Below, one piece after another: positions 4,679 to 53,145 of a DNA stretch of 64,000 nucleotides. The translations under genes were made by a program, and so were the position numbers. The DNA is taken from contig NZ_CM001368.1 of assembly GCF_000177215.2 (NCBI RefSeq), positions 3,665,625 to 3,729,624 of the forward strand, read 5' to 3'. The notes below the pieces were generated by a model. The model was not told where the DNA came from and ran no database searches. It worked only from the letters and a program-made list of their open reading frames with translations. Position 1 is the stretch's first letter, and each line of letters starts with the position of its first letter. This DNA is from Solidesulfovibrio carbinoliphilus subsp. oakridgensis (GTDB lineage Bacteria > Desulfobacterota > Desulfovibrionia > Desulfovibrionales > Desulfovibrionaceae).

Positions 4679-5111
4679 CAAGCGGCCGCCGGCCCCGGCA
4701 TCCGGCCTGACCCGGCGGGAGGCCATGGCGCTCTCTCCGGTCAAAAGCCGCGACGTCCTGGCTGACGAGGCCCCGTCCGGGTGCGTGCGCCTGTCCCTGC
4801 CCGTGGCCGTGCGCCCGGCCCTGGCCGGGCTGGCCCGGCGGTTCGGCCTGTGGGACGGCAAGGTCCTGCGCAAGACCGTGGAGCTCGACGCCATGGGCTC
4901 GGCCGTCTGGCGGCTGATCGACGGCCGGCGGTCCCTCGGCGATATCGCCGCCGCCCTGGCCGGCCGGTTCGGCCTCGACGCCCGGGAGGCCGAGCTGGCC
5001 GTGGCCGAATTCCTGCGCCAGCTCGGCCGGCGGGGGGCCATCGCCATGGCGGGGCAGGCGAGGGCGACGGAGGGGAAGGAAGGGATGCCTCCGGCGGCCG
5101 GGAGGGGATGA
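4665..5111 (+). CDS. PqqD-like (RiPP-recognition-element fold) protein
   Basis: 148 residues from GTG 4665. The PqqD-like core is VELDAMGSAVWRLIDGRRS and a helical segment ending FLRQLGRRGAIAM. PqqD domains recognise leader peptides in RiPP pathways, but no radical-SAM enzyme or precursor is adjacent, so the role here is open. GTG 4665 is preferred because TRREAMALSPVKS upstream of the alternative ATG (4725, with GGGAGG) resembles the N-terminus of related proteins as I recall them. The last residues, MPPAAGRG, and the stop are encoded by the palindromic repeat at 5084-5138, so the C-terminus was set by repeat insertion or expansion. Confidence 0.7.
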   Translation: MFPFNKRPPAPASGLTRREAMALSPVKSRDVLADEAPSGCVRLSLPVAVRPALAGLARRFGLWDGKVLRKTVELDAMGSAVWRLIDGRRSLGDIAAALAGRFGLDAREAELAVAEFLRQLGRRGAIAMAGQARATEGKEGMPPAAGRG

Positions 5112-5138
5112 TCCCCTCCCGAACCCTCCCCGATGGGG
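5084..5138 (+). repeat. Palindromic intergenic repeat (GATGCCTCCGGCGGCCGGGA family), copy 1
   Basis: The unit is GATGCCTCCGGCGGCCGGG, then a hairpin AGGGGATGATCCCCT, then CCCGAACCCTCCCCGATGGGG. It overlaps the end of the PqqD-like gene and lies before mgtC. Confidence 0.85.
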
Positions 5139-18874: not shown

Positions 18875-19351
18875 ATGCGCATCGGCGAATTGGCCAGGCG
18901 GACCGGCTGCCGGCCGGACACCGTCCGTTTTTACGAGCGGGAGGGACTGCTCGCCGAGCCGGCCCGCACCGAAGGCAACTACCGGCTCTACGACGCCGTG
19001 CATCTGGCCCGGCTGACTTTTATTCGCAACTGCCGGGCTCTGGAGATGAACCTGGACGAGATCCGGCTGCTTCTGGCCGTCCTGGACGGCACCGGCCACG
19101 ACTGCGGCGAGGTGGTCACGGTCCTTGGGGCGCACATCGGCCACATCGCCGACCGCATCGCCCGGCTTCAGGCCCTGCAAGGCCAGTTGCTGGCCCTGCG
19201 GGAGCTGTGCACCGGGGTCACGCCCGTGGACCAGTGCGCCATCATCAAGGAGCTGACGGAGCCGGGGAGCGTGCCCCTGGAGCCGGGAGGCGGGAGTGGG
19301 GAGGAGGGTTGCGGGAAGAGGAAGATGCCTCCGGCGGCCGGGAGGGGGTGA
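18875..19351 (+). CDS. cadR: MerR-family heavy-metal regulator, CadR/PbrR type
   Basis: 158 residues. N-terminal winged helix MRIGELARRTGCRPDTVRFYERE, a dimerisation coiled coil (about 80-112), and metal ligands Cys77 (GHDCGEV), Cys112 and Cys121 (LCTGVTPVDQC), the spacing seen in CadR/PbrR. It should bind the dyad at 18825-18845 and switch on the divergent ATPase gene with Cd or Pb. ATG 18875 has GGAGGG upstream. The last residues KMPPAAGRG and the TGA come from a palindromic repeat, so the tail after about residue 135 is not conserved family sequence. Confidence 0.9.
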   Translation: MRIGELARRTGCRPDTVRFYEREGLLAEPARTEGNYRLYDAVHLARLTFIRNCRALEMNLDEIRLLLAVLDGTGHDCGEVVTVLGAHIGHIADRIARLQALQGQLLALRELCTGVTPVDQCAIIKELTEPGSVPLEPGGGSGEEGCGKRKMPPAAGRG

Positions 19352-19515
19352 CCCCCTCCCGGACCCTCCCCACCGGGGGATGGGAGGCACGGCGAAGTCG
19401 GCCACACCGACCCACGCCCGTGCGCAACCGCATTCCCACCCGCTTTCCCTATTTGAATACGCCCCTTTCGGGGGGTCCGGGGGGGATGATCCCCCCCGGC
19501 CGCCGGAGGCCTCTT
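19322..19515. repeat. Composite of two palindromic repeats in inverted orientation, copies 4 and 5
   Basis: A plus copy (19322-19380) and a minus copy (19463-19515) flank a core of about 80 bases containing GGCACGGCGAAG and GTGCGCAACC. The same arrangement recurs at 41221-41436. It lies between the converging cadR and DUF1980 genes, where paired hairpins could end both transcripts. Confidence 0.85.
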
Positions 19516-30661: not shown

Positions 30662-33388
30662 ATGTTCCAGATCGAAGATGGGCTTGCCGGCGTCGAGAGC
30701 CTTCCGCGGGTCCGGGCCAAGGGCCGTTACCTGTTTGCCGGCGAGGACAAGTTCTTCATCAAGGGCGTCACCTACGGGCCGTTTCCGGAGAATTCCCGGG
30801 GCGAGCCCCTGCCCGAGGACGCGACCGTGGACCATGACTTCGAGCTCATGCGCCGGGCCGGGGTCAACGCCATCCGCGTGTATTACGTGCCCCCGCGCCG
30901 CTTCCTGGACATCGCCGCCAGGCATGGCATCCGCGTCATGGTCGGCATCCCCTGGCCCCAGCACCTGTGCTTCCTCGACCAGTGGGAAGTCAAGGAAGAC
31001 ATCCAAAAGACCGTGCGCGAGGCCGTCGCCTCCCTGGCCGGCCATCCGGCCATCCTCGCCTGGCTGATCGGCAACGAGATCCCGAGCCACATCGTGCGCT
31101 GGCACGGCGCCGGCAAGGTCGAGAAGTTCCTGGCCAAGCTCGCGGCCATCGTGCGCGAGGAAGACCCGGAAGGCATGGTCACCTACGCCAACTATCCGTC
31201 CACCGAATACCTGCGCCTGCCGTTTCTCGATTTCCTGTCGATAAACGTCTACCTGCACGACCCCAAGGCCTTCCGGTCCTACGTCAAGCGGCTGCAGAAC
31301 GTGGCCGGCGAGCTGCCCCTGGTCCTGTCCGAATTCGGCATGGACTCCCTGCGCAATTCCGAGGAGCACGTGGCCGAGACGCTGTCCTGGCAGCTGGCCT
31401 CCGCCTTCGAGCTCGGCGTCTCCGGCACCATGGTCTTCGCCTGGACCGACGAGTGGTACACCGGCGGCCACCTGATCGAGGACTGGAAGTTCGGCATCGT
31501 CTCCGACGTCCGAAAGCCCAAGCCGGCCTACAAGGCCGTGGCCGACGTCTACCGCCAGAAGCTGCCCATGCTGCCGGCCAATGCCCCCTTTATTTCCGTC
31601 GTGGTCTGCGCCTACAACGCCGAATCCACCATGGACGGCTGCCTGAAGTCCTTTGCCAAGGTGGCCTACCCGCACTTCGAGGTCATCGTGGTGGACGACG
31701 GCTCCACCGACGCCACGGGCGAGATTTCCGACCGCCACGCCGCGGCCGCGCCCTACATCCACGTCATCCACCAGCCGAACCTGGGACTCAGTGCCGCCCG
31801 AAACGTCGGCATGAACGCGGCCCGGGGCGAGATCGTGGCCTACACCGACTCCGACTGCTACGTGGACCCGCACTGGCTCCACTACATGGCCTGGGCCTTC
31901 ACCGACGAGCGCTTCATCGCCGTCGGCGGCCCGAACCTGGCCCCGCTGGAGGACAACCGGACCGCCGCCTGCGTGGCCGTCTCTCCGGGCGCCCCGACCC
32001 ACGTCCTTTTGACCGACGAGATCGCCGAGCACATCCCGGGCTGCAACATGGCCTACCGCAAGGAATACCTGGCCGGCATCGGCGGCTTCGACGCCACCTA
32101 CCGGGCGGCCGGCGACGACGTGGACGTCTGCTGGCGGCTCCAGGACCAGGGGCATATCATCGGCTTTTCCGCGGCCATGACCGTGTGGCACCACCGCCGC
32201 AACACCGTTTCGGCCTACCTCAAACAGCAAAAGGGCTACGGCCGGGCCGAGGCGCTCTTGCTTCCCAAGCACAAGACCCGCTTCAACATGCTCGGCAATT
32301 CCCGCTGGGCCGGCCGCATCTACGGCGACATCTCGGGCGCCCTTCTGGCCGCCCGTCCCATCGTCTACCACGGGGCCTTCGGCATGGGCCTGTTCCAGAC
32401 GCTCTACGAGCCCAAGGGCAGCCTGGCCGCCTACCTGCCTTTGTCCATGGAGTGGATGGTCCTGGCCGTGGCCGCCATGCTGGCTGCGCCCCTGAGCTAC
32501 GTGGCCGGCGGCGCCGGGCTGGTCATGGCCGCCATGACGCTGGCCTTCGTGGCCTACCGGGTGAGCAAGGCCCGTCTGCCCGAGTGCCACGACACCATGG
32601 CCTCGCGCCTGACCATCGCCGGCCTGACGCTCGCCCAGCCCGTGCTTCGCGGCTGGACCCGCTACAAGACCGTGTGGGGCCTTCGAAGCGCCGCCGGCCG
32701 CAACGCCTGCCCGCTCCCCCTGGCCGACACCGCCGCCTGCGACGAGGCCGACCTGCCGCGCGTCGGCATCCTCGGCCGCCTGGCCGCCACCGGCGGCATC
32801 CTGGCCCACCGCCTGTCCTTCCACCGGTTTTTCTGGAACAACAAGGGCCTGGAGCGCGACGAGCTGCTTGGGTCCATCATCGGCCTCATGCGGACCCTGG
32901 ATGTTTCCTATGCGCTCGACAGCGGCTTTGCCGCCTCCTCGGCCACCCCGCCCTGGGACCTGTCGGTCAAGGGCGGCCGGCTGACCACCGCCCGGCTGCG
33001 GGTGACGGTCGAGAACCACGGCGGCGAGAAGCGGTTCGTGCGCATGGCCGGCTCGGTCCTGCCGTCCGGCCTGTCCACCGCCGCCCTGGCCGTCTGCCTC
33101 GGGCTGGCCGCCGGTTTCGCCCTGGTCCAGCCGGCCGTCGCCCTGGCCGCCTGCGCCCTGGCCCTCGGCCTGGCCGGCTGGATGGTGGCCGGGCTCTACC
33201 GGGCCGCCTCCCTGGTCGCCACCATCACCCAGTACGTGATGGTCACCCGCCCCGGCTGCTCCATGACCGAGCCGAAAGACGAGCGGGTGGCCCGGGTGGT
33301 CCGGCCGCAGAAGGCGGCGGACGCGGATGCCGACGCCGCCGCCGAAGCCGGTGCCGCCGAGCCGGCCGTCGAAACCGTCGCCGCCTAG
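30662..33388 (+). CDS. Bifunctional glycoside hydrolase - GT2 glycosyltransferase membrane protein
   Basis: 908 residues with three parts. About 25-300 is a TIM-barrel glycoside hydrolase of the GH5/GH2-catalytic type, with acid/base Glu139 (LIGNEIPSH) and nucleophile Glu224 (VLSEFGMD). About 308-560 is a family 2 glycosyltransferase with ISVVVCAYNAES, VVDDGSTD (Asp345-346), DxD as TDSD (396-398), the acceptor block GDDVDVCWRL and GCNMAYRKEYL. About 600-650 and 805-850 are membrane helices. The protein should polymerise sugars at the inner membrane and cut or transfer the product with its own hydrolase domain, as NdvB-type cyclic glucan synthases do with a GH17 domain. Sugar and linkage are unknown. 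ATG 30662 follows GAAGGGGAGC. Confidence 0.85.
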   Translation: MFQIEDGLAGVESLPRVRAKGRYLFAGEDKFFIKGVTYGPFPENSRGEPLPEDATVDHDFELMRRAGVNAIRVYYVPPRRFLDIAARHGIRVMVGIPWPQHLCFLDQWEVKEDIQKTVREAVASLAGHPAILAWLIGNEIPSHIVRWHGAGKVEKFLAKLAAIVREEDPEGMVTYANYPSTEYLRLPFLDFLSINVYLHDPKAFRSYVKRLQNVAGELPLVLSEFGMDSLRNSEEHVAETLSWQLASAFELGVSGTMVFAWTDEWYTGGHLIEDWKFGIVSDVRKPKPAYKAVADVYRQKLPMLPANAPFISVVVCAYNAESTMDGCLKSFAKVAYPHFEVIVVDDGSTDATGEISDRHAAAAPYIHVIHQPNLGLSAARNVGMNAARGEIVAYTDSDCYVDPHWLHYMAWAFTDERFIAVGGPNLAPLEDNRTAACVAVSPGAPTHVLLTDEIAEHIPGCNMAYRKEYLAGIGGFDATYRAAGDDVDVCWRLQDQGHIIGFSAAMTVWHHRRNTVSAYLKQQKGYGRAEALLLPKHKTRFNMLGNSRWAGRIYGDISGALLAARPIVYHGAFGMGLFQTLYEPKGSLAAYLPLSMEWMVLAVAAMLAAPLSYVAGGAGLVMAAMTLAFVAYRVSKARLPECHDTMASRLTIAGLTLAQPVLRGWTRYKTVWGLRSAAGRNACPLPLADTAACDEADLPRVGILGRLAATGGILAHRLSFHRFFWNNKGLERDELLGSIIGLMRTLDVSYALDSGFAASSATPPWDLSVKGGRLTTARLRVTVENHGGEKRFVRMAGSVLPSGLSTAALAVCLGLAAGFALVQPAVALAACALALGLAGWMVAGLYRAASLVATITQYVMVTRPGCSMTEPKDERVARVVRPQKAADADADAAAEAGAAEPAVETVAA

Positions 33389-33403
33389 AACGCATCCTTT
33401 GAG

Positions 33404-33597
33404 CCGCCGCCCCCGCGCCACGTCTTTATCGTGGCCGGGGGCGGCCGGCGTATGCCCGCCACGCCGGCCGCGACCGGCGAGCGGGCCGCAAACACCCCCG
33501 CCCGGCCGGGGGGCCGGAGGGCATGCCGCCTTCCGGCGGGTGCGGGGACCACGTCCCCGCCGGGGAGTCCGGGAAGGGGTGTATCCCCCCCTCCCGG
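33404..33597. repeat. Hairpin and diverged palindromic repeat, copy 7, before the ABC exporter
   Basis: An imperfect long stem (33404-33444: CCGCCCCCGCGCCACG with CGTGGCCGGGGGCGG) lacks a T run. About 100 bases later comes a diverged minus repeat (about 33548-33597, GGGAGTCCGGGAAGGGGTGTATCCCCCCCTCCCGG). The hairpins may process the message between the glycan synthase and the exporter. Confidence 0.6.
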
Positions 33598-33614
33598 TTG
33601 CAAGGACAATCGCC

Positions 33615-35420
33615 ATGAGCATGTTCCGCACGCTGCTGGGCTATCTCAAGCCCTACAAATTTCTCTTCTTCCTGGGCCTTTTCCTGGTCGGCCTGGCCAG
33701 CGCCATGGAGCTTTTGAAACCCTGGCCGCTCAAGCTCGCCGTGGACCAGATCATCGGCCAAAAGCCGCTTGTGGTCTTCGGCTGGACGCCCGATCTCGGG
33801 GCCATGACCCTCGGCGTGAAGCTGGCCTGCGTGGTCGGCATGCTGGTCGGCGTGCACTTCCTGGTCGGGTTCGTGCAGCTGTGCAACAACTACCTGACCA
33901 TCCGCATGGGCCAGGATATGGTCCAGGACCTGCGGTGCGACCTCTTTGACCACCTGCAGCGCCAGTCGCTCCTGTTCCACCAGAAATGGCCCACCGGCGA
34001 CCTCATCTACCGCATCATGGGCGACACCTATGCCGTGCAGACGCTGCTCATGAACGGCGTCTTCACCACCCTGACCAGTTCGGCCCTTTTGATCGGCATG
34101 CTGGCCGTCTGCCTGCAGATGGACGTGGAGCTGACGCTCTACGCCCTGTGCGTCATCCCGTTTCTGTTCCTGGCCATTTCCCGCGTCTCCCGGAAGATCG
34201 GCGACCTGACCACCGAGACCCACATGAAGGAGTCCCAGGTCTACACCACGGTGGAGCGGATATTCTCCTCCATCACCCTGGTCCAGGCCTTTGGCCGCGA
34301 GGAGGAGGAGCGCCGCAAGTTCGTGGCCGAGTCCAAGCACTCCTTTGACCGCAAGCTTTCGCTCTACGCCTTGCAGACCGTCTACGGCTGGCTGGTGTCC
34401 GGCATCACCGCCGCCGGCACGGCGCTCGTCCTGTACATCGGCGTGCGCCACGTGCTGGAGGGCCTGCTCTCTACCGGCGAACTGCTGGTTTTCATCGCCT
34501 ATCTGGCCTCGCTCTATACGCCCTTAAATAGCCTCAGCGACACGGTGGCCGGCATCCGGGCCTCGCTGGCCCGGGCCCGGCGCGTCATGGACGTCCTGGC
34601 CGTGGACGAGGCCGTGCCCGAGCGGGAAGGCGCCCCGGATCTGGCCATATCCGCGGGCGAGGTCCGCTTCGAGGACGTGAGCTTCGGCTACACGCCGGAA
34701 AAGATGGTCTTAAACGACGTCACCTTCACCTGCCGGGGCAACTCGACCGTGGCCATCGTCGGCCAGACCGGGGCCGGCAAGACCTCGCTCATCAGCCTGC
34801 TTTTGCGCTTTTACGATCCCCGCAAGGGAGCCATCGTCATCGACGGCCAGGACCTGCGCGACGTGTCGCTCAAAAGCCTGCGCCGCCACATCGCCATCGT
34901 CCTCCAGGAGACCCAGCTTTTCCCCATGACCGTGCACGACAACATCGCCTACGGGAAGAAGCAGGCCAGCCGGGAAGAGGTGGAGCGGGTGGCCATGCTC
35001 GCCAACGCCCACGACTTCATCAAGGAACTGCCCAAGGGCTACGACACCATCCTCGGCGAGAAAGGCGCCAACCTGTCCGGCGGCCAGCGCCAGCGGCTGG
35101 CCATCGCCCGGGCACTCCTCAAGGACGCGCCGCTTCTCATCCTCGACGAGCCGACCTCGGCCCTGGACGCCGAGACCGAGGCGCTCATCATGGAAGGCCT
35201 CGACCGGCTCATGCAAAACCGCACCACCTTCGTCATCGCCCACCGCCTTTCGATGATGCGCCGGGCCGACATGATCCTGGTCATCAAAAACCAGCGCATC
35301 CACGAAATGGGCTCCTACGACGAGCTCATGGCCAAAAACGGCGAATTCGCCCGGCTCCACGCCATCCAGATGGGCAAGGGCCGGCCTGAGAAGCTGCCTC
35401 CCAAGCCCCTGGTGGCCTGA
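33615..35420 (+). CDS. ABC exporter (MsbA/NdvA-like half-transporter)
   Basis: 601 residues. Six-helix membrane domain (about 1-320, starting MSMFRTLLGYLKPYKFL) fused to an ATPase with Walker A GQTGAGKTS, Q-loop VLQETQLF, signature NLSGGQRQRLAIARA, Walker B LLILDEPTSALD and the H-loop VIAHRLS. It works as a homodimer exporting a lipid, glycan or peptide. The position 226 bases after the GH-GT2 synthase resembles the ndvB-ndvA arrangement, so the substrate is probably the glycan made there. Confidence 0.88.
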   Translation: MSMFRTLLGYLKPYKFLFFLGLFLVGLASAMELLKPWPLKLAVDQIIGQKPLVVFGWTPDLGAMTLGVKLACVVGMLVGVHFLVGFVQLCNNYLTIRMGQDMVQDLRCDLFDHLQRQSLLFHQKWPTGDLIYRIMGDTYAVQTLLMNGVFTTLTSSALLIGMLAVCLQMDVELTLYALCVIPFLFLAISRVSRKIGDLTTETHMKESQVYTTVERIFSSITLVQAFGREEEERRKFVAESKHSFDRKLSLYALQTVYGWLVSGITAAGTALVLYIGVRHVLEGLLSTGELLVFIAYLASLYTPLNSLSDTVAGIRASLARARRVMDVLAVDEAVPEREGAPDLAISAGEVRFEDVSFGYTPEKMVLNDVTFTCRGNSTVAIVGQTGAGKTSLISLLLRFYDPRKGAIVIDGQDLRDVSLKSLRRHIAIVLQETQLFPMTVHDNIAYGKKQASREEVERVAMLANAHDFIKELPKGYDTILGEKGANLSGGQRQRLAIARALLKDAPLLILDEPTSALDAETEALIMEGLDRLMQNRTTFVIAHRLSMMRRADMILVIKNQRIHEMGSYDELMAKNGEFARLHAIQMGKGRPEKLPPKPLVA

Positions 35421-35559
35421 GACGAGGACGTTGGGGAAGCCTCCGGCGGCCAAAGGGCTTGGCCCTTTGGAAACCCGCTCCGGGTGAAGCCCTTTCGGAA
35501 AAACATTCCTTGCTTCGCGCCCGGCTCGGCTGGTTGCCATCCTTGGCTCATACCGGCTA

Positions 35560-35620
35560 GTGTGGCGTTCGCTAAAAAATATGTTAATATTTTTTAGAAA
35601 AAACTAATTATTTAAATATG
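35560..35620. repeat. AT-rich repeat shared with 50716-50753, copy A
   Basis: GTGTGGCGTTCGCTAA (35560-35575) and AATTATTTAAATAT (35606-35619) match the second copy. Between them an 11-bp perfect inverted repeat, CTAAAAAATAT-GTTA-ATATTTTTTAG (35572-35597), is unique to this copy. Confidence 0.7.
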
Positions 35621-35623
35621 TTA

Positions 35624-35655
35624 TTCTCGAAATTCGTATGTACGAATTTCGAGAA
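35624..35655. repeat. Perfect 32-bp palindrome
   Basis: TTCTCGAAATTCGTA, TG, TACGAATTTCGAGAA. Arms of 15 bases separated by two. It lies about 70 bases upstream of the lyase start. It could be an operator, a recombination site or a hairpin in the leader. Confidence 0.85.
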
Positions 35656-35724
35656 CGCGACATTAGACCGGGCGCATCGGCGACGCCGCCCCCCGCGTTT
35701 TTTCCATCCCGCCAAGGAGCTTTC

Positions 35725-36627
35725 ATGCGCCCTCTACGTAAGACGACGCGCTTTCGCCAACTCGTCAACGCCCCGGAAATCCTCCTGCTGCCCGTGGCCC
35801 ACGACGCCCTGTCCGCCCTGGTCATTGCCGAGGCCGGGTTTTCCGCCCTGGCCGTGGCCGGCTACGGGTCGTCGGGCAGCACGCTCGGCCTGCCGGACAT
35901 CGGCCTTATGACGGCCACCGAAATGCTCACCCACTACGGCCACATCGTCGACCGGGTCGACCTGCCGGTCATGGTCGACATCGACACCGGCTTTGGCGAC
36001 GTGAATAACGTCATCCGCACCGTGCGACAGGTGGAGCGTCTCGGCGCGGCGGCCCTGTTCCTCGAAGACCAGACCTTTCCCAAACGCTGCGGCCACATGG
36101 CCGGCAAATCGGTCGTGCCGGTCGAGGACTACCTGCCGAAGCTCAAAGCCGCCCTCTGGGCCAGGGAAGACCCCGATTTCACCATCATGGCCCGCACCGA
36201 CGCGGCCGCCGTCTACGGCATCGACGAGGCCATCCGTCGGGCCAGGCTCTACGCCGAAGCCGGGGCGGACATGGTCTTTGTCGAGGCCGTCACCTGCGCC
36301 CGCGATATGCGCCGGGTCAACGCCGAGGTTCCCGTCCCCACCATGGCCAACATGATCGAGGGCGGCCAATCGCCCTTTCTGCCGGCCGCCGAGCTCCAGG
36401 AACTCGGCTATGCCGTGGTCGCCTACCCCTGCGCCTCGGTCTTCACCGCCGTCCGGGCCTTGCGCGGCTGGGCCGGCTGCCTTAAAGCCACAGGCACCAG
36501 CGCCGGTTTCGCCGGGCCGGACACCATGATCGATTTCGAGGAATACTACCGCTTCATCGGCGCGCCCGGGATACGGGAGCGGGAGAAGTTGTTTTTCCCG
36601 CTGCAGGAAGAAAAGGCGAAGAAGTGA
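35725..36627 (+). CDS. Isocitrate lyase/PEP mutase superfamily enzyme (methylisocitrate-lyase-like)
   Basis: 300 residues, (beta/alpha)8 barrel. FPKRCGHMAGK holds the catalytic Cys of the methylisocitrate/dimethylmalate lyase branch. Metal-binding Asp are in MVDIDTGFGD, followed by LFLEDQ, IMARTDAA and MVFVEAV. It cleaves or forms a C-C bond in a 2-3-substituted malate- or isocitrate-like acid; annotation as carboxyphosphonoenolpyruvate mutase or oxaloacetate decarboxylase would also occur. Neither citrate-synthase-like nor phosphonate genes are adjacent, so its place among glycan genes is unexplained. ATG 35725 has AAGGAG; the frame extends 29 codons upstream but without a ribosome-binding site. 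Confidence 0.85.
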   Translation: MRPLRKTTRFRQLVNAPEILLLPVAHDALSALVIAEAGFSALAVAGYGSSGSTLGLPDIGLMTATEMLTHYGHIVDRVDLPVMVDIDTGFGDVNNVIRTVRQVERLGAAALFLEDQTFPKRCGHMAGKSVVPVEDYLPKLKAALWAREDPDFTIMARTDAAAVYGIDEAIRRARLYAEAGADMVFVEAVTCARDMRRVNAEVPVPTMANMIEGGQSPFLPAAELQELGYAVVAYPCASVFTAVRALRGWAGCLKATGTSAGFAGPDTMIDFEEYYRFIGAPGIREREKLFFPLQEEKAKK

Positions 36628-36628
36628 A

Positions 36629-36683
36629 GATGCCTCCGGCGGCCGGGAGGGGATGATCCCCTCCCGGACCCTCCCCAATGGGG
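36629..36683 (+). repeat. Palindromic intergenic repeat, copy 9
   Basis: A full plus copy, GATGCCTCCGGCGGCCGGG to CCCTCCCCAATGGGG, two bases after the lyase stop and before the glycosyltransferase-like gene. Confidence 0.9.
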
Positions 36684-36740
36684 TCGTGCCGGGTGGGCGG
36701 AGCATCTGAAGAAGAGCGAATGCCGGGGAGGAGTCAAAGC

Positions 36741-37925
36741 ATGAAAAAGCGCACCATCATCGTTTCGGGGCTGGCCGCCACCTATCCGCTCGGCGGCGTG
36801 GCCTGGGACTACATCCAGTACCTCCACGGCTTCCACCGGCTCGGCCATGACGTCTACTACCTGGAAGACACGGGCGGCTGGGCCTACGATCCCTTCAACG
36901 TCACCTTTGTGGACGATCTGACCTACCATACGAAGTATCTGGGCGATTTTCTGAAGGAACTGGCTCCGGGCCTGGAAAAGCGCTTTTGCGTCATCGGGCC
37001 GGACGAGCGCCACTGGGGCATGGCGGCCGAGGAGCTCGACGCCGTGGTCAAAAGGGCCGACGTCTTTTTCAATATTTCGACGACCTGCCAGCTCCGCGAG
37101 AGCTACGCCAAAATTCCGGTCAAGGTGCTGATCGACTCGGACCCGCTCTACACCCAGTCGAGTTTTCCCGACTATCTGGCCGGCACGGCCACCGACGACG
37201 AAAAGAAAAATATCGAGAACATGCGCCGCCACGACGTCTTCTTCTCCTTTGGCGAGAACGTGGGCCAGGACTTCTGCACCGTGCCCAAGGGCATCGTGGA
37301 CTGGATTCCCACCCGCCAGCCCATCGTCCTCGACAGCTGGGCCGGAGCTCCGGCCCGGCCCGGCCGCGACGCCTTCACCACGGTCCTGTCCTGGCAGCCG
37401 GCCCAGAAGGGGCCGCTCGTCGACGGGGTCCAGTACGGCGGCAAGAACCTCGAATTCGAGAAGATGCTCGACCTGCCGCAAAAGACCGCGGCCACCCTGG
37501 AACTGGCCCTCGGCGGCGGCCAGCCGCCCCGGGAACTGCTGGAGGAAAAGGGCTGGAAGCTCCGGGACGGCTTTTCCATGTCCCAGACGCCCTGGGTCTA
37601 CCGGGACTACATCTGGGACAGCCTGGCCGAATTCTCCACCGCCAAAAACGCCTACGTGGCCACCCAAAGCGGCTGGTTCTCCTGCCGCACGGCCTGCTAC
37701 CTGGCCTCGGGCCGGCCGGCCGTGGTCCAGGACACCGGCTACTCCCGGTTCATGGACGTGGGGGAGGGTGTGCTCGCCTTCAGCGACGAGGCCGGGGCCC
37801 TGGCCGGCATCGAGGCCGTGCGCGCGGACTGGGACCGCCATTCCCAGGCGGCCAAGGCCTTTGCCGCCCGCTATTTCGACAGCGACGCCGTCCTTTCGAA
37901 GCTGCTTTCCGACGCGCTGGGCTAG
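36741..37925 (+). CDS. Putative glycosyltransferase (GT-B-like)
   Basis: 394 residues, no signal peptide. The N-terminus is TIIVSGLAATYPLGGVAWDYI followed by a His-rich LHGFHRLGHDVYYLED, a Rossmann-like start seen in GT-B enzymes. The C-terminal block GWFSCRTACYLASGRPAVVQDTG is like the nucleotide-sugar end of GT4-type enzymes (E in the EX7E motif not clear). Acceptor and donor unknown. It lies between the lyase and a secreted glycoside hydrolase, suggesting a glycan-modifying role. ATG 36741 with GGGGAGGAG upstream. Confidence 0.65.
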   Translation: MKKRTIIVSGLAATYPLGGVAWDYIQYLHGFHRLGHDVYYLEDTGGWAYDPFNVTFVDDLTYHTKYLGDFLKELAPGLEKRFCVIGPDERHWGMAAEELDAVVKRADVFFNISTTCQLRESYAKIPVKVLIDSDPLYTQSSFPDYLAGTATDDEKKNIENMRRHDVFFSFGENVGQDFCTVPKGIVDWIPTRQPIVLDSWAGAPARPGRDAFTTVLSWQPAQKGPLVDGVQYGGKNLEFEKMLDLPQKTAATLELALGGGQPPRELLEEKGWKLRDGFSMSQTPWVYRDYIWDSLAEFSTAKNAYVATQSGWFSCRTACYLASGRPAVVQDTGYSRFMDVGEGVLAFSDEAGALAGIEAVRADWDRHSQAAKAFAARYFDSDAVLSKLLSDALG

Positions 37926-37951
37926 GGCCGCCAACCGCCAGCATCCAGGCT

Positions 37952-39859
37952 ATGAAACGAACTATCCTCCTGTTTTTATTGTTGTTTTTGTGCTTCGCCT
38001 TTGCCGCCTGCGCCCTGGCCGGCGGCTTCGGCGTGGCCCGGGACGGCGGCGTCTCCTGGCTGACCCTGCCCGGCGGGCCGCGCTTTTTCTCCATCGGCGC
38101 GGACACCGTCAACTGCGGCACCGAGCCCGTCCAGGCCGACGCCTATTCGTTTTCCGCCTGCTACGCCGACCGCGACGCCTGGGCCGCCGATACCGAGGCG
38201 CGGCTGCGGTCCTGGGGCTTCAACACCCGGGGCGGCTGGTCCGATCCGACCACCCGCATGTCCCTGCCGCTGGTCCCGGAGATCGACCTTGGCCGCAACA
38301 GCCGGCTCCACTGGTTCGATCCCTTTGCCCCGGACGCCCTGGCAAAGACCGTGGCCAAGGCCCGGGAGCTGACCGAACCCCACCGGAACAACCCGGCCGT
38401 GATCGGCTATTTCACGGACAACGAGGTCGGCTGGTGGAACGCGCCGCTTTTCCGCTGGTACCTCGGCAACGAATGGGCCGTCTATTCCAAGCAATTCCTG
38501 TGGCGCATGATCTTCGACCACTACCGGGGCCGGTGGGACCGGCTCCTGGCCGACTTCGTGCCCGGCCCGGACGTCCATTCCTTCGAGGACCTGAAAAAGG
38601 GCAGGGCGGTCCTCAAACTCCGTCCCGGCGGCCAGGGCATCCACCTCATCCAGAAATTCACCGCCGCCTGCGCCGGCCGCTACTACGAACTGGTCCACAA
38701 GGCCCTCAAGGCCGTGGACCCGGACCGCCTCGTCATGGGCGACCGGCTGCCGCTCTACTACAACCAGGACGCGGTCCTGGCCTCGCGCGGCCATTTGGAC
38801 GTCCTTTCCACCAACTACAACGTGGACACCCCGGACGGCTGGGTGGCCCCGTACTATTTCGAGGGCCTGGCCAAACTGACCGACGCCCCGGTCCTCATCT
38901 CGGAATTCTTCTTCGCCGCCGACGAGAACCGGTCGGGCAACATCAATAACGGCCACCTGATGCACGTCAAGACCCAGGCCGAGCGGGCGGCCGGCGCGGC
39001 GGCGGCCGTGCGCAACTTCGCCGCCTTCCCCAACGTCGTCGGCACCCACTGGTTCCAGTACTACGACGAACCCTCCGGCGGCCGCGGGGACGGCGAGAAC
39101 TTCAACATGGGGCTGGTGGACATCCGAAACGAGCCCTACGAAGGCCTTGTCGCCGCCCTGACGCGGGCCAACGCCGCCGTGCCGGCCATCCACGTCGCAA
39201 GCGCCAAGGCCGCGCCGCCGCTGCCGGCCGTCGTCCCCGTCCGCCCGGCGCGCGGTCCGGTCAACGCGACCGACGACTCCCTGGCCGACTGGCCGGACAA
39301 GGCCGCGACCCGCCTGCCCTGGTTTACGGTCCCGGCCCCCCACGTGCCCTTTGGCGACGTCCACGTTTCCTGGAGTCCGGACAGCCTCAATCTCTTCAAT
39401 CTGGCCCAGAACTACGCCGATCTCTATCTCCTCGACCACGACGGCCCCTTCCCGGTCTCGGAAACCTACCGCATCAACCTGGACGTGGACGCCGGGGCCG
39501 GGGTCCGCCACTTCGCCGCCTGCCTCGTGCCGCGCCCCCATGCCAAGTATCCGGGCCGGTTCGAACTGGCGCCCGAACTCTACGAAGTCGCCGCCGACGG
39601 CAGCCTTGTCCGTCTGGAGGAAAAGGGCGTTCTCCAGGTCCTGGACAAGCCCCTGCCGCACATCGCGGTGGAGATGGCCTTGCCGGCGAAACTTTTCGGC
39701 GTGGACCGGCTCACCGCCGGCATGCCCCTTCGCATCGGTATTTCCGTGACCACGTTCTACCGGGAAATGACCATGACCCTCGGCCAGGGGCCGCAGGGCC
39801 GGACCGGCCGCGATGGGGCAAAGGCCCTGCCCATGGCCATGGTCCTCTCTGACACGTAA
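37952..39859 (+). CDS. Secreted glycoside hydrolase, GH42/beta-galactosidase-like
   Basis: 635 residues. Signal peptide MKRTILLFLLLFLCFAFAACA with cleavage near ALA. The catalytic TIM-barrel is about 45-415: WGFNTRGGWSDP, VIGYFTDNEVGWWN (acid/base Glu) and VLISEFFFAADENRSGN (nucleophile Glu), ending THWFQYYDEPSGG. A C-terminal domain of about 200 residues resembles a carbohydrate-binding or sugar-hydrolase accessory beta-sandwich (SWSPDSLNLFNLAQNYAD). It should act on a glycan in the periplasm or outside, perhaps trimming the polymer made by the 30662 protein. The ribosome-binding site is weak, so it may be coupled to the preceding gene. Confidence 0.78.
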   Translation: MKRTILLFLLLFLCFAFAACALAGGFGVARDGGVSWLTLPGGPRFFSIGADTVNCGTEPVQADAYSFSACYADRDAWAADTEARLRSWGFNTRGGWSDPTTRMSLPLVPEIDLGRNSRLHWFDPFAPDALAKTVAKARELTEPHRNNPAVIGYFTDNEVGWWNAPLFRWYLGNEWAVYSKQFLWRMIFDHYRGRWDRLLADFVPGPDVHSFEDLKKGRAVLKLRPGGQGIHLIQKFTAACAGRYYELVHKALKAVDPDRLVMGDRLPLYYNQDAVLASRGHLDVLSTNYNVDTPDGWVAPYYFEGLAKLTDAPVLISEFFFAADENRSGNINNGHLMHVKTQAERAAGAAAAVRNFAAFPNVVGTHWFQYYDEPSGGRGDGENFNMGLVDIRNEPYEGLVAALTRANAAVPAIHVASAKAAPPLPAVVPVRPARGPVNATDDSLADWPDKAATRLPWFTVPAPHVPFGDVHVSWSPDSLNLFNLAQNYADLYLLDHDGPFPVSETYRINLDVDAGAGVRHFAACLVPRPHAKYPGRFELAPELYEVAADGSLVRLEEKGVLQVLDKPLPHIAVEMALPAKLFGVDRLTAGMPLRIGISVTTFYREMTMTLGQGPQGRTGRDGAKALPMAMVLSDT

Positions 39860-39877
39860 CCCCAAGGAAGACGACAC

Positions 39878-40891
39878 ATGGCAACGAACATCCTCGTGAC
39901 CGGCGGCGCGGGCTACATCGGCTCCCATACCTGTAAGGCCCTGAAGGCGGCCGGGTTCACCCCCGTCACCTACGACAACATGGTCTACGGCCACGACTGG
40001 GCCGTCAAATGGGGTCCGCTCGTGCGCGGCGACATCCTGAGCCGGGGCTCCCTCGACGAGGTCTTCGCGGAATACAAGCCCGCGGCCGTGCTCCACTTCG
40101 CGGCCTTCGCCTACGTCGGCGAGTCCGTCACCGATCCGGAGAAGTACTACCGCAACAACGTGGCCGGCTCCCTCTCGCTTCTCTCGGCCATGCGCAAAAG
40201 CGGCTGCAAGCACATCGTCTTTTCGAGCACCTGCGCCACCTACGGCGCGCCCGAGCGCGTCCCCCTGACCGAGGACCACCCGACCCGGCCCATGAGCCCC
40301 TACGGCACGACCAAGCTCATGATCGAGCAGATGCTCAAGGACTTCGAGGCCGCCTACGGCATCGGCTACACGGCCCTTCGCTACTTCAACGCCGCCGGAG
40401 CCGATCCCGAAGGCCTCATCGGCGAGGACCACGACCCCGAGACCCATCTCATCCCCCTGGTCATCGCCGCCGGACTCGGCCGCCGGCCCCAGGTGGAGAT
40501 CTTCGGCACCGACTATCCCACCCCGGACGGCACGGCCGTGCGCGACTACATCCACGTCACCGACCTGGCCGAGGCCCACATCCTGGCCGTCCAGAAGCTC
40601 CTGGACGGCGGGCCGAGCGCCACCTACAACCTCGGCACCGGCACGGGCAATTCCGTGCGCGAAGTCATCCGGGCCGTGGAAAAGGTCTCGGGCCAGCCCG
40701 TGCCCGTGGTCGAAGGCCCCCGCCGGGCCGGCGATTCCCCGGGCCTATACGCCGATTCCGGGGCGATTATCCGCGAACTCGGCTGGAAACCCCGGTACAT
40801 GGACCTCGATGCCATCGTGGAAACGGCCTGGCGCTGGCACCAGTCCCATGTGCCCGGCAAAATGGTTTGCAATATCCGCACGCCCGGCTAA
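39878..40891 (+). CDS. galE: UDP-glucose 4-epimerase
   Basis: 337 residues, extended SDR. NAD motif VTGGAGYIGSH (7-17), SSTCATYG with catalytic Ser/Thr, YGTTK (Tyr-x3-Lys), RYFNAAGADP and VRDYIHVTDLAEAH. It interconverts UDP-glucose and UDP-galactose (or the N-acetyl forms), feeding the glycan cluster. A start 18 bases after the hydrolase stop with AAGGAAG fits an operon. Confidence 0.93.
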   Translation: MATNILVTGGAGYIGSHTCKALKAAGFTPVTYDNMVYGHDWAVKWGPLVRGDILSRGSLDEVFAEYKPAAVLHFAAFAYVGESVTDPEKYYRNNVAGSLSLLSAMRKSGCKHIVFSSTCATYGAPERVPLTEDHPTRPMSPYGTTKLMIEQMLKDFEAAYGIGYTALRYFNAAGADPEGLIGEDHDPETHLIPLVIAAGLGRRPQVEIFGTDYPTPDGTAVRDYIHVTDLAEAHILAVQKLLDGGPSATYNLGTGTGNSVREVIRAVEKVSGQPVPVVEGPRRAGDSPGLYADSGAIIRELGWKPRYMDLDAIVETAWRWHQSHVPGKMVCNIRTPG

Positions 40892-40930
40892 CATATCCGG
40901 CACAAGACCATAAATGATCCCGGAGGGCGC

Positions 40931-41206
40931 ATGGACTACGCCGCACTCGGCCTGGATTTTCACTCGATCCGCAACAGAAACGAGAGCCGGGTCATCAACC
41001 TGATTCCCGAGGTCCTGGCCGAGTTCCCGGATTTCCGGTTCACGCGCACCGACATCGAGGACATCTACGCCCTGACGCTCAACATGCTGCCGGCCCGCTA
41101 CGTCCAGGCCGTCAGCCTCGTCATCGACGAACCCGTCACCGACGAAACCGTGCGCCTCATGCTCCGCGAAGCCATCCGCACCGTCCGCGCGCGGCCGAAT
41201 ATCTGA
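40931..41206 (+). CDS. ComFB family protein (probable c-di-GMP receptor)
   Basis: 91 residues. Matches the ComFB family by NLIPEVLAEFP, DIEDIYALTLNMLPARYVQ and the helical C-terminus. ComFB was named for competence in Bacillus; family members in cyanobacteria have been reported to bind cyclic di-GMP. It lies 39 bases after galE, the last gene of the glycan cluster, so it may couple c-di-GMP to glycan output. That role is inferred. CCGGAGG precedes ATG 40931. Confidence 0.75.
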   Translation: MDYAALGLDFHSIRNRNESRVINLIPEVLAEFPDFRFTRTDIEDIYALTLNMLPARYVQAVSLVIDEPVTDETVRLMLREAIRTVRARPNI

Positions 41207-41220
41207 GAGGAAGAGGGGGA

Positions 41221-41436
41221 AGATGCCTCCGGCGGCCGGGAGGGGATGATCCCCTCCCGGACCCTCCCCAACGGGGGATTGGGACGCGCGGAAGGCACGG
41301 CGAAGCTGGTGGAACCCTTGCGCAACATACCATCAAACTTCCGACCGCGACCACCCGCACTCCCGCTTCCCCACCTCCAGCCCCCCTTCCAGGGGGTCCG
41401 GGGGGGATGATCCCCCCGGCCGCCGGAGGCATCTTT
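41221..41436. repeat. Composite of two palindromic repeats in inverted orientation, copies 10 and 11
   Basis: Plus copy 41221-41279, core of about 110 bases, minus copy 41388-41436. The core shares GGCACGGCGAAG and TGCGCAAC with the composite at 19322-19515. It separates the glycan cluster from the ilvBN operon and is probably a transcription end. Confidence 0.85.
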
Positions 41437-51933: not shown

Positions 51934-53145
51934 ATGCGCATGAGAGCCAGAAAGGCCCTGACCACGGGGACGGCCCTTGTCCTTACCTGCCTGCTTGCCG
52001 CATGCGGGCCGGGCAATACGTTGTCCGTCGGCGGCAAGAGCGCCGACTTTCGCCTGAAGGCCGTGGAATCCTCCCTGGAAAAAGCCCAGGAGGATCTCAA
52101 AGCCATAGATCGTCGCCAGACCCAGAACGACGCCAGACTGGCCGAGGTGCAAAAACGCCTCGGCGAGCTGTTGGCGGCGCTCAAAGCCCAGGGCGTCAAA
52201 ACCCCGGCCCAGGCCGCGGCCCAGGGCAGCGCGCTTGGCGTCGGGTTCGCCAACCCGGCCGCCGCCGGCGGGGCGGGGGGCGTCAAACCGCCGCTGTCCG
52301 GAACTCCCGGCGGCGAAGCCGGGGAGGCCCCGGCCGGCCCGCCGCCCCAGCTTTCCGCCGCCGACTCCGGGCCGCTCCCGGGCGAGCGGCCCGGGCCCGC
52401 CGCCGCCTCGGCTCCCGGGCCCGAAGCCCGGGGCCGGCACGGCCTTGGCCGGGTGGGACCGGCCGAACCGGCCCCCCCGGCCACGCCCGAGGCGGCCATC
52501 GCCGCCGACCGGACCGAGGCCGGGCCAAAGCCGGCCCCGCCGGCCGCAACGGGTGCCGGCACACCGCCCAAGGCCGGGCCGGCCGCCCCGGCCACGCCGG
52601 CCGCTCCCGCCCCGGCGCCGGCGCCCACTCCCGCCCCCGGGGCGCCAGGCGCGACACCGCCCGCGACACCGTCCGCGACACCGTCCGCGTCGGGGGCCGC
52701 GCCGGCCGCCGGAGAGCCGGCCGCCAAGCCGGCCCCGCCCGTGGCCGGCAGCGCCGAAAACGCCTCGCCCGCGGAGAAGGCCGAGTACAACCGGGCCCTC
52801 CAGATGGCGATAAACGGCAACACCGCCGGGGCCAAGGCCGCCTTTGACCAGTTCCTGGCCGCCCATCCCCGGAGTCCCTTGACGCCGAACGCCCTCTACT
52901 GGGTGGGCGAGGGCGCCTTTGCCGGCGGCGACTACCAGACCGCCATCAGCGATTTCGACAAGGTGGCCAAGGGCTGGCCCGGCCACCACAAGGCGGCCGA
53001 CGCCCTCTACAAGATGGCCATGGCCCAGGAAAAGGCCGGCGACGCGGCCGCGGCCCGGGCCAGCCTGGAGCGTTATCTGAAAGACTATCCCAGCGCGGAA
53101 CTGGCCGGCATCGTCCGCCAGAAACTGCAAGCCCTGCCCAAATGA
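51934..53145 (+). CDS. CpoB/YbgF-like TPR lipoprotein
   Basis: 403 residues from ATG 51934. A lipoprotein signal RKALTTGTALVLTCLLAAC, a coiled coil (about 35-85, LKAVESSLEKAQEDLKAID), a Pro/Ala linker of about 190 residues, and three C-terminal TPR-like repeats (SPAEKAEYNRALQMAINGN onward; TPNALYWVGEGAFAGGDYQ; ADALYKMAMAQEKAG). CpoB coordinates peptidoglycan synthesis with outer-membrane constriction. The Ala/Pro linker is much longer than in E. coli YbgF. No tol genes are nearby, and the start lacks a good ribosome-binding site (GTG 51895 is an alternative). Confidence 0.7.
   Translation: MRMRARKALTTGTALVLTCLLAACGPGNTLSVGGKSADFRLKAVESSLEKAQEDLKAIDRRQTQNDARLAEVQKRLGELLAALKAQGVKTPAQAAAQGSALGVGFANPAAAGGAGGVKPPLSGTPGGEAGEAPAGPPPQLSAADSGPLPGERPGPAAASAPGPEARGRHGLGRVGPAEPAPPATPEAAIAADRTEAGPKPAPPAATGAGTPPKAGPAAPATPAAPAPAPAPTPAPGAPGATPPATPSATPSASGAAPAAGEPAAKPAPPVAGSAENASPAEKAEYNRALQMAINGNTAGAKAAFDQFLAAHPRSPLTPNALYWVGEGAFAGGDYQTAISDFDKVAKGWPGHHKAADALYKMAMAQEKAGDAAAARASLERYLKDYPSAELAGIVRQKLQALPK

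Follow-up and report, generated by a model that had tools for sequence, protein, structure and literature searches.

A ComFB-family gene is a conserved part of a putative glycan cassette in two genera of sulfate-reducing bacteria

In the Pel (PelD), alginate (Alg44), and cellulose (BcsA) systems, which we take to be exopolysaccharide systems controlled by cyclic di-GMP (c-di-GMP), the receptor is encoded together with the synthesis and export genes. The literature consulted connects ComFB proteins with competence, pili, and cell size, and in literature searches on ComFB no title or opening line of an abstract pointed to a link with a glycan cassette or with exopolysaccharide gene clusters. According to one report (PMC12313861), cyanobacterial ComFB binds both cyclic di-AMP (c-di-AMP; dissociation constant KD 2.6 uM) and c-di-GMP (1.7 uM); in cells that have lost it, pilus and surface proteins are altered. 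Here we describe a comFB gene that closes a putative glycan cassette in a 64,000 nucleotide stretch of Solidesulfovibrio carbinoliphilus subsp. oakridgensis (contig NZ_CM001368.1, positions 3,665,625 to 3,729,624; hereafter the window, with coordinates counted from its first letter). Compared with the Pel/PelD, Alg44, and BcsA systems, this locus is alike in pairing a candidate receptor gene with genes for making and exporting a glycan, but unlike them in that the candidate receptor is of the ComFB type and the exporter is a single MsbA-like ABC (ATP-binding cassette) protein.

The cassette spans 30662-41206 and probably serves the synthesis, trimming, and export of an exopolysaccharide or oligosaccharide. 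Its genes, in order from the fusion gene that begins at 30662 to the comFB gene that ends at 41206, with a variable slot between exporter and GT-B gene, are as follows:

30662-33388, plus strand: core gene 1, the fusion of a clan-A glycoside hydrolase-like domain with a family 2 glycosyltransferase (GH/GT2 fusion), with C-terminal transmembrane-like segments, 908 residues
33615-35420, plus strand: core gene 2, an MsbA/HepA/ChvA-type ABC exporter, 601 residues
35725-36627, plus strand: lyase of the phosphoenolpyruvate (PEP) mutase/isocitrate lyase superfamily with a Cys loop (KRCGH), a guest in the variable slot, 300 residues
36741-37925, plus strand: core gene 3, a GT-B fold glycosyltransferase, 394 residues
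37952-39859, plus strand: core gene 4, a secreted agarase-like glycoside hydrolase with a hydrophobic N-terminus, 635 residues
39878-40891, plus strand: galE, UDP-glucose 4-epimerase, 337 residues
40931-41206, plus strand: comFB, the last cassette gene, encoding a small ComFB/CdgR-family protein, 91 residues

The original prediction had placed five genes, lyase through comFB, on one strand, and all five are borne out at those positions as open reading frames (ORFs) of the plus strand with coding-type codon composition. The cassette begins before the span then considered, with two conserved upstream genes (30662-35420) that had been omitted. Successive gaps from the lyase through the GT-B, hydrolase, and galE genes to comFB are 113, 26, 18, and 39 bp, so the tight spacing claimed for most of the run holds only from the GT-B gene to comFB; the lyase is loosely placed, with 304 bp upstream (containing a 110-bp repeat resembling a miniature inverted-repeat transposable element, MITE) and 113 bp downstream (containing a dispersed GC-rich repeat).

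A survey of 59 genomes (the organism's own and 58 relatives; G and L numbers are our handles for genomes and loci) found ComFB in 30 of them, at 31 places, and neighborhoods of about 1.5 kb per side were fetched around 30 of these 31. Comparison of these and wider stretches reveals that comFB is a stable, conserved part of the glycan cassette in two genera. Specifically, i) galE lies directly upstream of comFB in 14/14 genomes of the genus, our own included, and also in G022 of another genus; ii) the order fusion, exporter, GT-B, hydrolase, galE, comFB is uniform wherever the contig permits (12 congeners and G022, in wider stretches), and the fusion consistently precedes the exporter gene in relatives; iii) in a second genus (g10), all six genomes with a match to the GT-B protein, including G022, have the full cassette, and in each of them comFB lies 0.2-4.3 kb downstream of galE (4.3 kb in G162, 2.5 kb in G178); and iv) among eight genomes with at least 600 bases downstream of comFB (G001, G011, G012, and G013 being too short, and G002 and G007 left out), the DNA beyond comFB in our own genome has nothing in common with the other seven, and downstream DNA is largely common to three pairs (G003/G010, G009/G005, and G008/G006; 0.49-0.96), all other overlaps being at most 0.12. 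Since comFB is kept after galE while the DNA on its far side changes, their association cannot simply be put down to synteny of the whole region. The proposal that comFB is a conserved companion of glycan genes has thus survived a synteny check in our own genus (14/14) and the second (6/6). ORF calling was rough around relatives, with wrong-strand frames in low-GC loci and, among the loci around the lyase, in L142, L144, L149, L155, and L138; G010 and G007 were therefore rechecked by tblastn.

The 91-residue product belongs to the ComFB family by its Pfam score (PF10719, 38.8 bits against a gathering cut-off of 25). In published work on B. subtilis ComFB (PMC4381287), the dimer-interface residues are N4, E7, D33, N40, and Y46, and the zinc site consists of four Cys (C25, C27, C30, and C88). 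The dimer residues correspond at a constant +11 offset to N15, E18, D44, N51, and Y57, which are invariant in 27 aligned ComFBs, as are N17, R20, R56, and Q59; the Bacillus-type zinc Cys are missing, there being zero Cys in the 91 residues. Nine ComFB loci outside the 27-row alignment were later checked against its profile: six match over their full length, L013 matches over residues 19-90 in one frame only, L002 gives no match to the 27-sequence profile, and L004 (G033) is of the Bacillus type, having a CTCSVC stretch but neither R20 nor R56. The invariant residues therefore hold for a subfamily rather than for every ComFB of the order, and the Cys-bearing L004 beside the type described here indicates that at least two subfamilies of ComFB exist in the order. 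G033 itself carries two ComFBs, the Bacillus-type L004 and L074, a member of the subfamily described here.

A single-sequence phmmer search with the protein gave no ComFB match in the PDB, and a profile was required; built from 11 relatives, it matched c-di-GMP-bound CdgR (8hja) at E 0.0048 and ComFB (4wai) at E 0.034. For the predicted model (pLDDT 80.5), 4wai and 8hja make up the first five of 26 Foldseek PDB matches; the Z-scores of 8.6 and 8.2 lie where chance can bring helical folds together, and are no more than suggestive for this helical protein. Like CdgR/ComFB of cyanobacteria (8hja; Slr1970, Alr3277), our protein has the PF10719 domain, the predicted core helices, and the N/E/D/N/Y dimer residues, and the genome encodes synthase domains for the candidate ligands; unlike CdgR, a chain of 179 residues, it comprises the core only (16-18% identity over the aligned core), its R20, R56, and Q59 are not shared, and its neighbor is a glycan cassette instead of hfq. 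It resembles B. subtilis ComFB (4wai) as its best fold match and in the identical spacing of the five dimer residues, but it lacks the zinc Cys, and comFA and comFC are not its immediate neighbors.

GGDEF is matched 27 times in our own genome and DAC once, so that both c-di-GMP and c-di-AMP are possible messengers. The original prediction had spoken of a candidate c-di-GMP receptor; c-di-GMP keeps its place as a candidate, but the label is too narrow, as cyanobacterial ComFB binds c-di-AMP as well (PMC12313861) and the genome has a synthase domain for either ligand. The control of the locus by c-di-GMP after synthesis, which the prediction also suggested, is conjectural. We propose a scheme in which the GH/GT2 fusion, ABC exporter, GT-B protein, and secreted hydrolase would jointly synthesize, trim, and export a glycan, and GalE would supply UDP-galactose; in which the last gene would encode a dimeric receptor of the ComFB/CdgR type that may bind a cyclic dinucleotide, most likely c-di-GMP, with c-di-AMP as the alternative; and in which ComFB in one ligand state might bind either one of the cassette's proteins or a regulator of transcription, and so tune glycan output. 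That ComFB is a cyclic-dinucleotide receptor tied to the glycan cassette seems to us an evenly balanced proposition, in which we infer both the candidate ligand binding and the target.

Several observations weigh against this reading: i) at the positions of N17, R20, R56, and Q59, c-di-GMP-bound 8hja has M, M, L, and T, and 4wai has K, V, S, and T, and since the four residues are not shared with 8hja, the ligand, or the way in which it is bound, may differ; ii) Foldseek gives the ComFB model weak E-values (0.025-0.14), and a helical fold readily finds matches; iii) half of the comFB-bearing genomes (15/30) have no cassette ortholog near comFB, for these 15 have no galE in the fetched neighborhood, and in 16 stretches of 6-13 kb taken from them the cassette proteins give only weak superfamily matches; and iv) two genomes, G068 and G074, have the cassette through galE, and three more, G210, G214, and G293 (82% complete), have cassette parts, with no ComFB match in any of the five, so that the cassette would not require ComFB for its function. 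The cassettes under iv) come from a class-wide search of 297 genomes in 53 genera, in which the GT-B protein was matched in 27 genomes of 9 genera (two of the 27, G065 and G204, without a full ortholog) and stretches from 13 of the 27 were scanned for cassette genes. Separation of comFB from the glycan genes, the contrary case named in the original prediction, is not seen in the two genera; it does occur in G182 (fusion, exporter, and GT-B) and G018 (GT-B and hydrolase), where ComFB lies on a different contig.

Such cassettes without comFB would be understandable if comFB were co-transcribed with the cassette but did its work elsewhere (pili, motility, competence, or global transcription; compare CdgR, which acts through DevH), and owed no more than its expression to its position. 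This alternative, which we regard as possible though rather unlikely, draws further on two reports (PMC12313861 and PMC13075795), in which cyanobacterial ComFB/CdgR acts on pili and through a CRP-family regulator, and on the chemotaxis-type or PHP-domain genes that adjoin comFB in other genera of the order; on the other side, the retention of comFB after galE in two genera despite changing downstream DNA favors a functional tie.

These other settings deserve description. In G039 (L078 4632-9554), comFB is part of a block of CheX-like (under cut-off), CheB, comFB, HDOD, CheD, and HDOD genes, and homologues of several of the block genes adjoin comFB in G045 and G053 (also L075 and L076); in G016, G024, G030, and G032 (L080, L081, L082, and L084; four genera), comFB adjoins one related gene, whose product is a PHP-domain protein in both genomes tested (G030 and G032). 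The chemotaxis-type and PHP-domain settings support a general signaling role for ComFB. A broader and tentative possibility, to which we attach less than even weight, is that the Desulfovibrionales ComFB is a portable second-messenger module, forming a distinct subfamily, whose partner would vary with the genus (a glycan export cassette, a CheX/CheB/CheD/HDOD cluster, or a PHP-domain protein) and whose ligand site would be built on the invariant R20, R56, and Q59, unlike that of CdgR or of the zinc-type ComFB.

The glycan genes themselves are recognizable to different degrees. The GH/GT2 fusion matches the Pfam families Glycos_transf_2 (112.2 bits), Glyco_hydro_2_C (40.6), and Glyco_hydro_72 (36.5), and retains a Glu in each of the motifs LIGNEIP (E139) and LSEFG (E224), presumably catalytic-type residues; the exporter matches Pfam ABC_membrane and ABC_tran, and its top NCBIfam matches are MsbA-type, under their cut-offs. 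The GT-B protein is sub-threshold in a Pfam glycosyltransferase family (23 against a cut-off of 25), and its AlphaFold model (pLDDT 92.2) has the GT-B fold: Foldseek gives 206 PDB matches at E<=0.001, and among the 50 listed 7fga is the best (E 2.8e-10, prob 1.00). Identity of the GT-B protein within the genus is 89-91%. A second GT-B paralogue, 41% identical, lies near another ABC-transporter-like gene (G000:C1:237741-238871, in L117), and second GT-B copies are present in most relatives having the GT-B gene. The hydrolase, which has no match in Pfam or NCBIfam, matches the beta-agarase 4bq2 by phmmer (E 2.4e-22, residues 74-410) and keeps two catalytic-type Glu (NE and SEF). It thus resembles the 4bq2-type beta-agarases, which we assume to be GH50 enzymes, in its catalytic region, but differs from them in its place inside a synthesis/export cassette, its low similarity, and an extra C-terminal part without family assignment. 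GalE is assigned by Pfam Epimerase (209.1 bits) and by the equivalog TIGR01179 (444.8 bits against a cut-off of 262.3).

The lyase has a different standing. It occupies the slot between exporter and GT-B genes in 7 of the 12 genomes of the genus in which the slot is readable (G000, G001, G003, G008, G011, and G013, plus G010, where lyase, exporter, and fusion stand together at the start of another contig and the first contig stops just past the GT-B gene), and it is absent from the slot in the other five (G004, G005, G006, G009, and G012). The count omits G002 (69% complete, slot not read) and G007, which has both slot arrangements on two contigs and a lyase that groups tightly with that of G003 in the tree; together these suggest a mixed bin, and G007 was therefore dropped. 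The cassettes of the second genus (6/6) showed no lyase, nor did the cassette stretches of other genera (where the slot was not covered in G210 and G018), and in G022 it lies outside the cassette, adjoining a carbonic-anhydrase-like gene (97 bits, under cut-off). A manual count on the cassette tree gives about three losses or three gains; the lyase tree agrees partly with the cassette tree, and places G000 with G008 and G013, against the cassette tree. Other guests use the same slot:

L040 7846-9507 and L046 9855-11516 (G004 and G011): a 553-residue protein, SGNH-looking by eye, with no NCBIfam match
L047 4749-7736 and L048 375-3491 (G012 and G007), on the cassette's own strand in both: a membrane protein of 995-1038 residues, weakly Agl23-type-like, the G012 copy having a weak, sub-threshold match to TIGR03663

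The lyase is thus an optional passenger in a variable slot, outside the glycan mechanism, and its inclusion in the glycan locus by the original prediction fails on its absence from 5/12 readable slots, on the lack of any lyase seen in the second genus's cassettes (6/6), and on its location elsewhere in G022; as a fixed locus component it is ruled out by the variable slot. It might instead belong to the glycan pathway after all, for example if it made or removed a small acid from which a non-carbohydrate substituent is derived, and it does keep the same slot in each of the seven genomes credited with it in the genus, with a tree that partly follows that of the cassette; yet we consider this improbable in view of the empty slots and of the other genera (G210 and G018 apart, where the slot was not covered), of the company it keeps elsewhere (the carbonic-anhydrase-like gene in G022, and tautomerase/PrpF-like and LeuCD-like genes beside the Desulfonema magnum homologue), and of the two dispersed repeats that flank it. 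We wish to stress that slot position alone does not make the lyase part of a glycan pathway.

As to what the lyase does, it matches Pfam PEP_mutase (174.9 bits) and has the loop KRCGH at residues 120-124, invariant in 11 aligned lyase sequences, which we take to be the catalytic Cys loop of the superfamily. Its best NCBIfam match is prpB (273.8 bits, residues 7-279), under the cut-off of 354.4, and it also falls under the curated cut-offs for phosphonopyruvate hydrolase (105.6 against 374.4) and PEP mutase (119.4 against 319.55). The closest PDB entry is the petal death protein 1zlp (E 1.6e-61), followed by 4iqd, by methylisocitrate lyases at ranks 3-7 (E. coli PrpB, 1mum, E 1.2e-52), and by dimethylmalate lyase 3fa3 in eighth place (E 1.4e-46). 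No MmgE/PrpD match was found in our own genome, against 7/14 control genomes positive, although an AcnD-type route was not searched. It is therefore very doubtful that the enzyme can be called a genuine PrpB-type methylisocitrate lyase, or else a phosphonopyruvate hydrolase, even though prpB is its best NCBIfam match, the KRCGH loop is present, and methylisocitrate lyases rank ahead of 3fa3 in the PDB: all three curated cut-offs are missed, no PrpD was found, and 1zlp ranks ahead of 1mum. The PrpB label is accordingly rejected on the missed prpB cut-off and the lack of a PrpD match in the genome, and the phosphonopyruvate hydrolase label on its score.

Among PDB sequences the lyase is most similar to the petal death protein 1zlp, with which, as with 4iqd, it has in common the Pro that precedes the K-R/K-C-G-H loop; it departs from 1zlp in being bacterial and in occupying a variable slot within a glycan cassette. 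A homologue in Desulfonema magnum, 52% identical, scores 295.4 for prpB and so misses that cut-off too; after it come a tautomerase/PrpF-like gene (under both cut-offs) and LeuC/LeuD-like genes, a layout reminiscent of dimethylmalate metabolism. Our best guess from these similarities is that the lyase is a metabolic gene whose product would be of the 2-alkylmalate type, yielding pyruvate.

Two dispersed repeats surround the lyase:

35557-35666, no strand assigned: MITE-like 110-bp dispersed repeat in the gap between the ABC exporter and lyase genes, with inverted ends (12/14 bases matching) and shared flanks
36632-36675, plus strand: dispersed GC-rich repeat between the lyase and GT-B genes, with an identical copy at 41225-41268

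The first contains a perfect 32-bp palindrome (35624-35655), of which the genome has 16 copies at up to 3 mismatches, 14 of them outside called frames, with occurrences also in 4 of the 12 congeners searched. We considered the palindrome as a lyase operator and rejected it because it lies inside a 16-copy repeat and was not seen upstream of the lyase in the five relatives inspected. The GC-rich repeat has four copies in the window (36632-36675, 41225-41268, 5087-5130, and 19327-19370), against 0 expected, and its core has 30 genome copies at up to 2 mismatches. Farther along the window, ARAGORN reports at 52267-52349 a tRNA-like gene adjoining tRNA-Pro, with an unassignable four-base anticodon (tcgc).

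The tie of ComFB to a glycan cassette, kept in two sulfate-reducer genera, offers a direct test of the role of the family outside cyanobacteria and Bacillus, in a small protein with a defined candidate target. If the Desulfovibrionales ComFB is indeed a portable module, the glycan cassette would be controlled by a class of receptor for which our literature searches revealed no published link to exopolysaccharide gene clusters.

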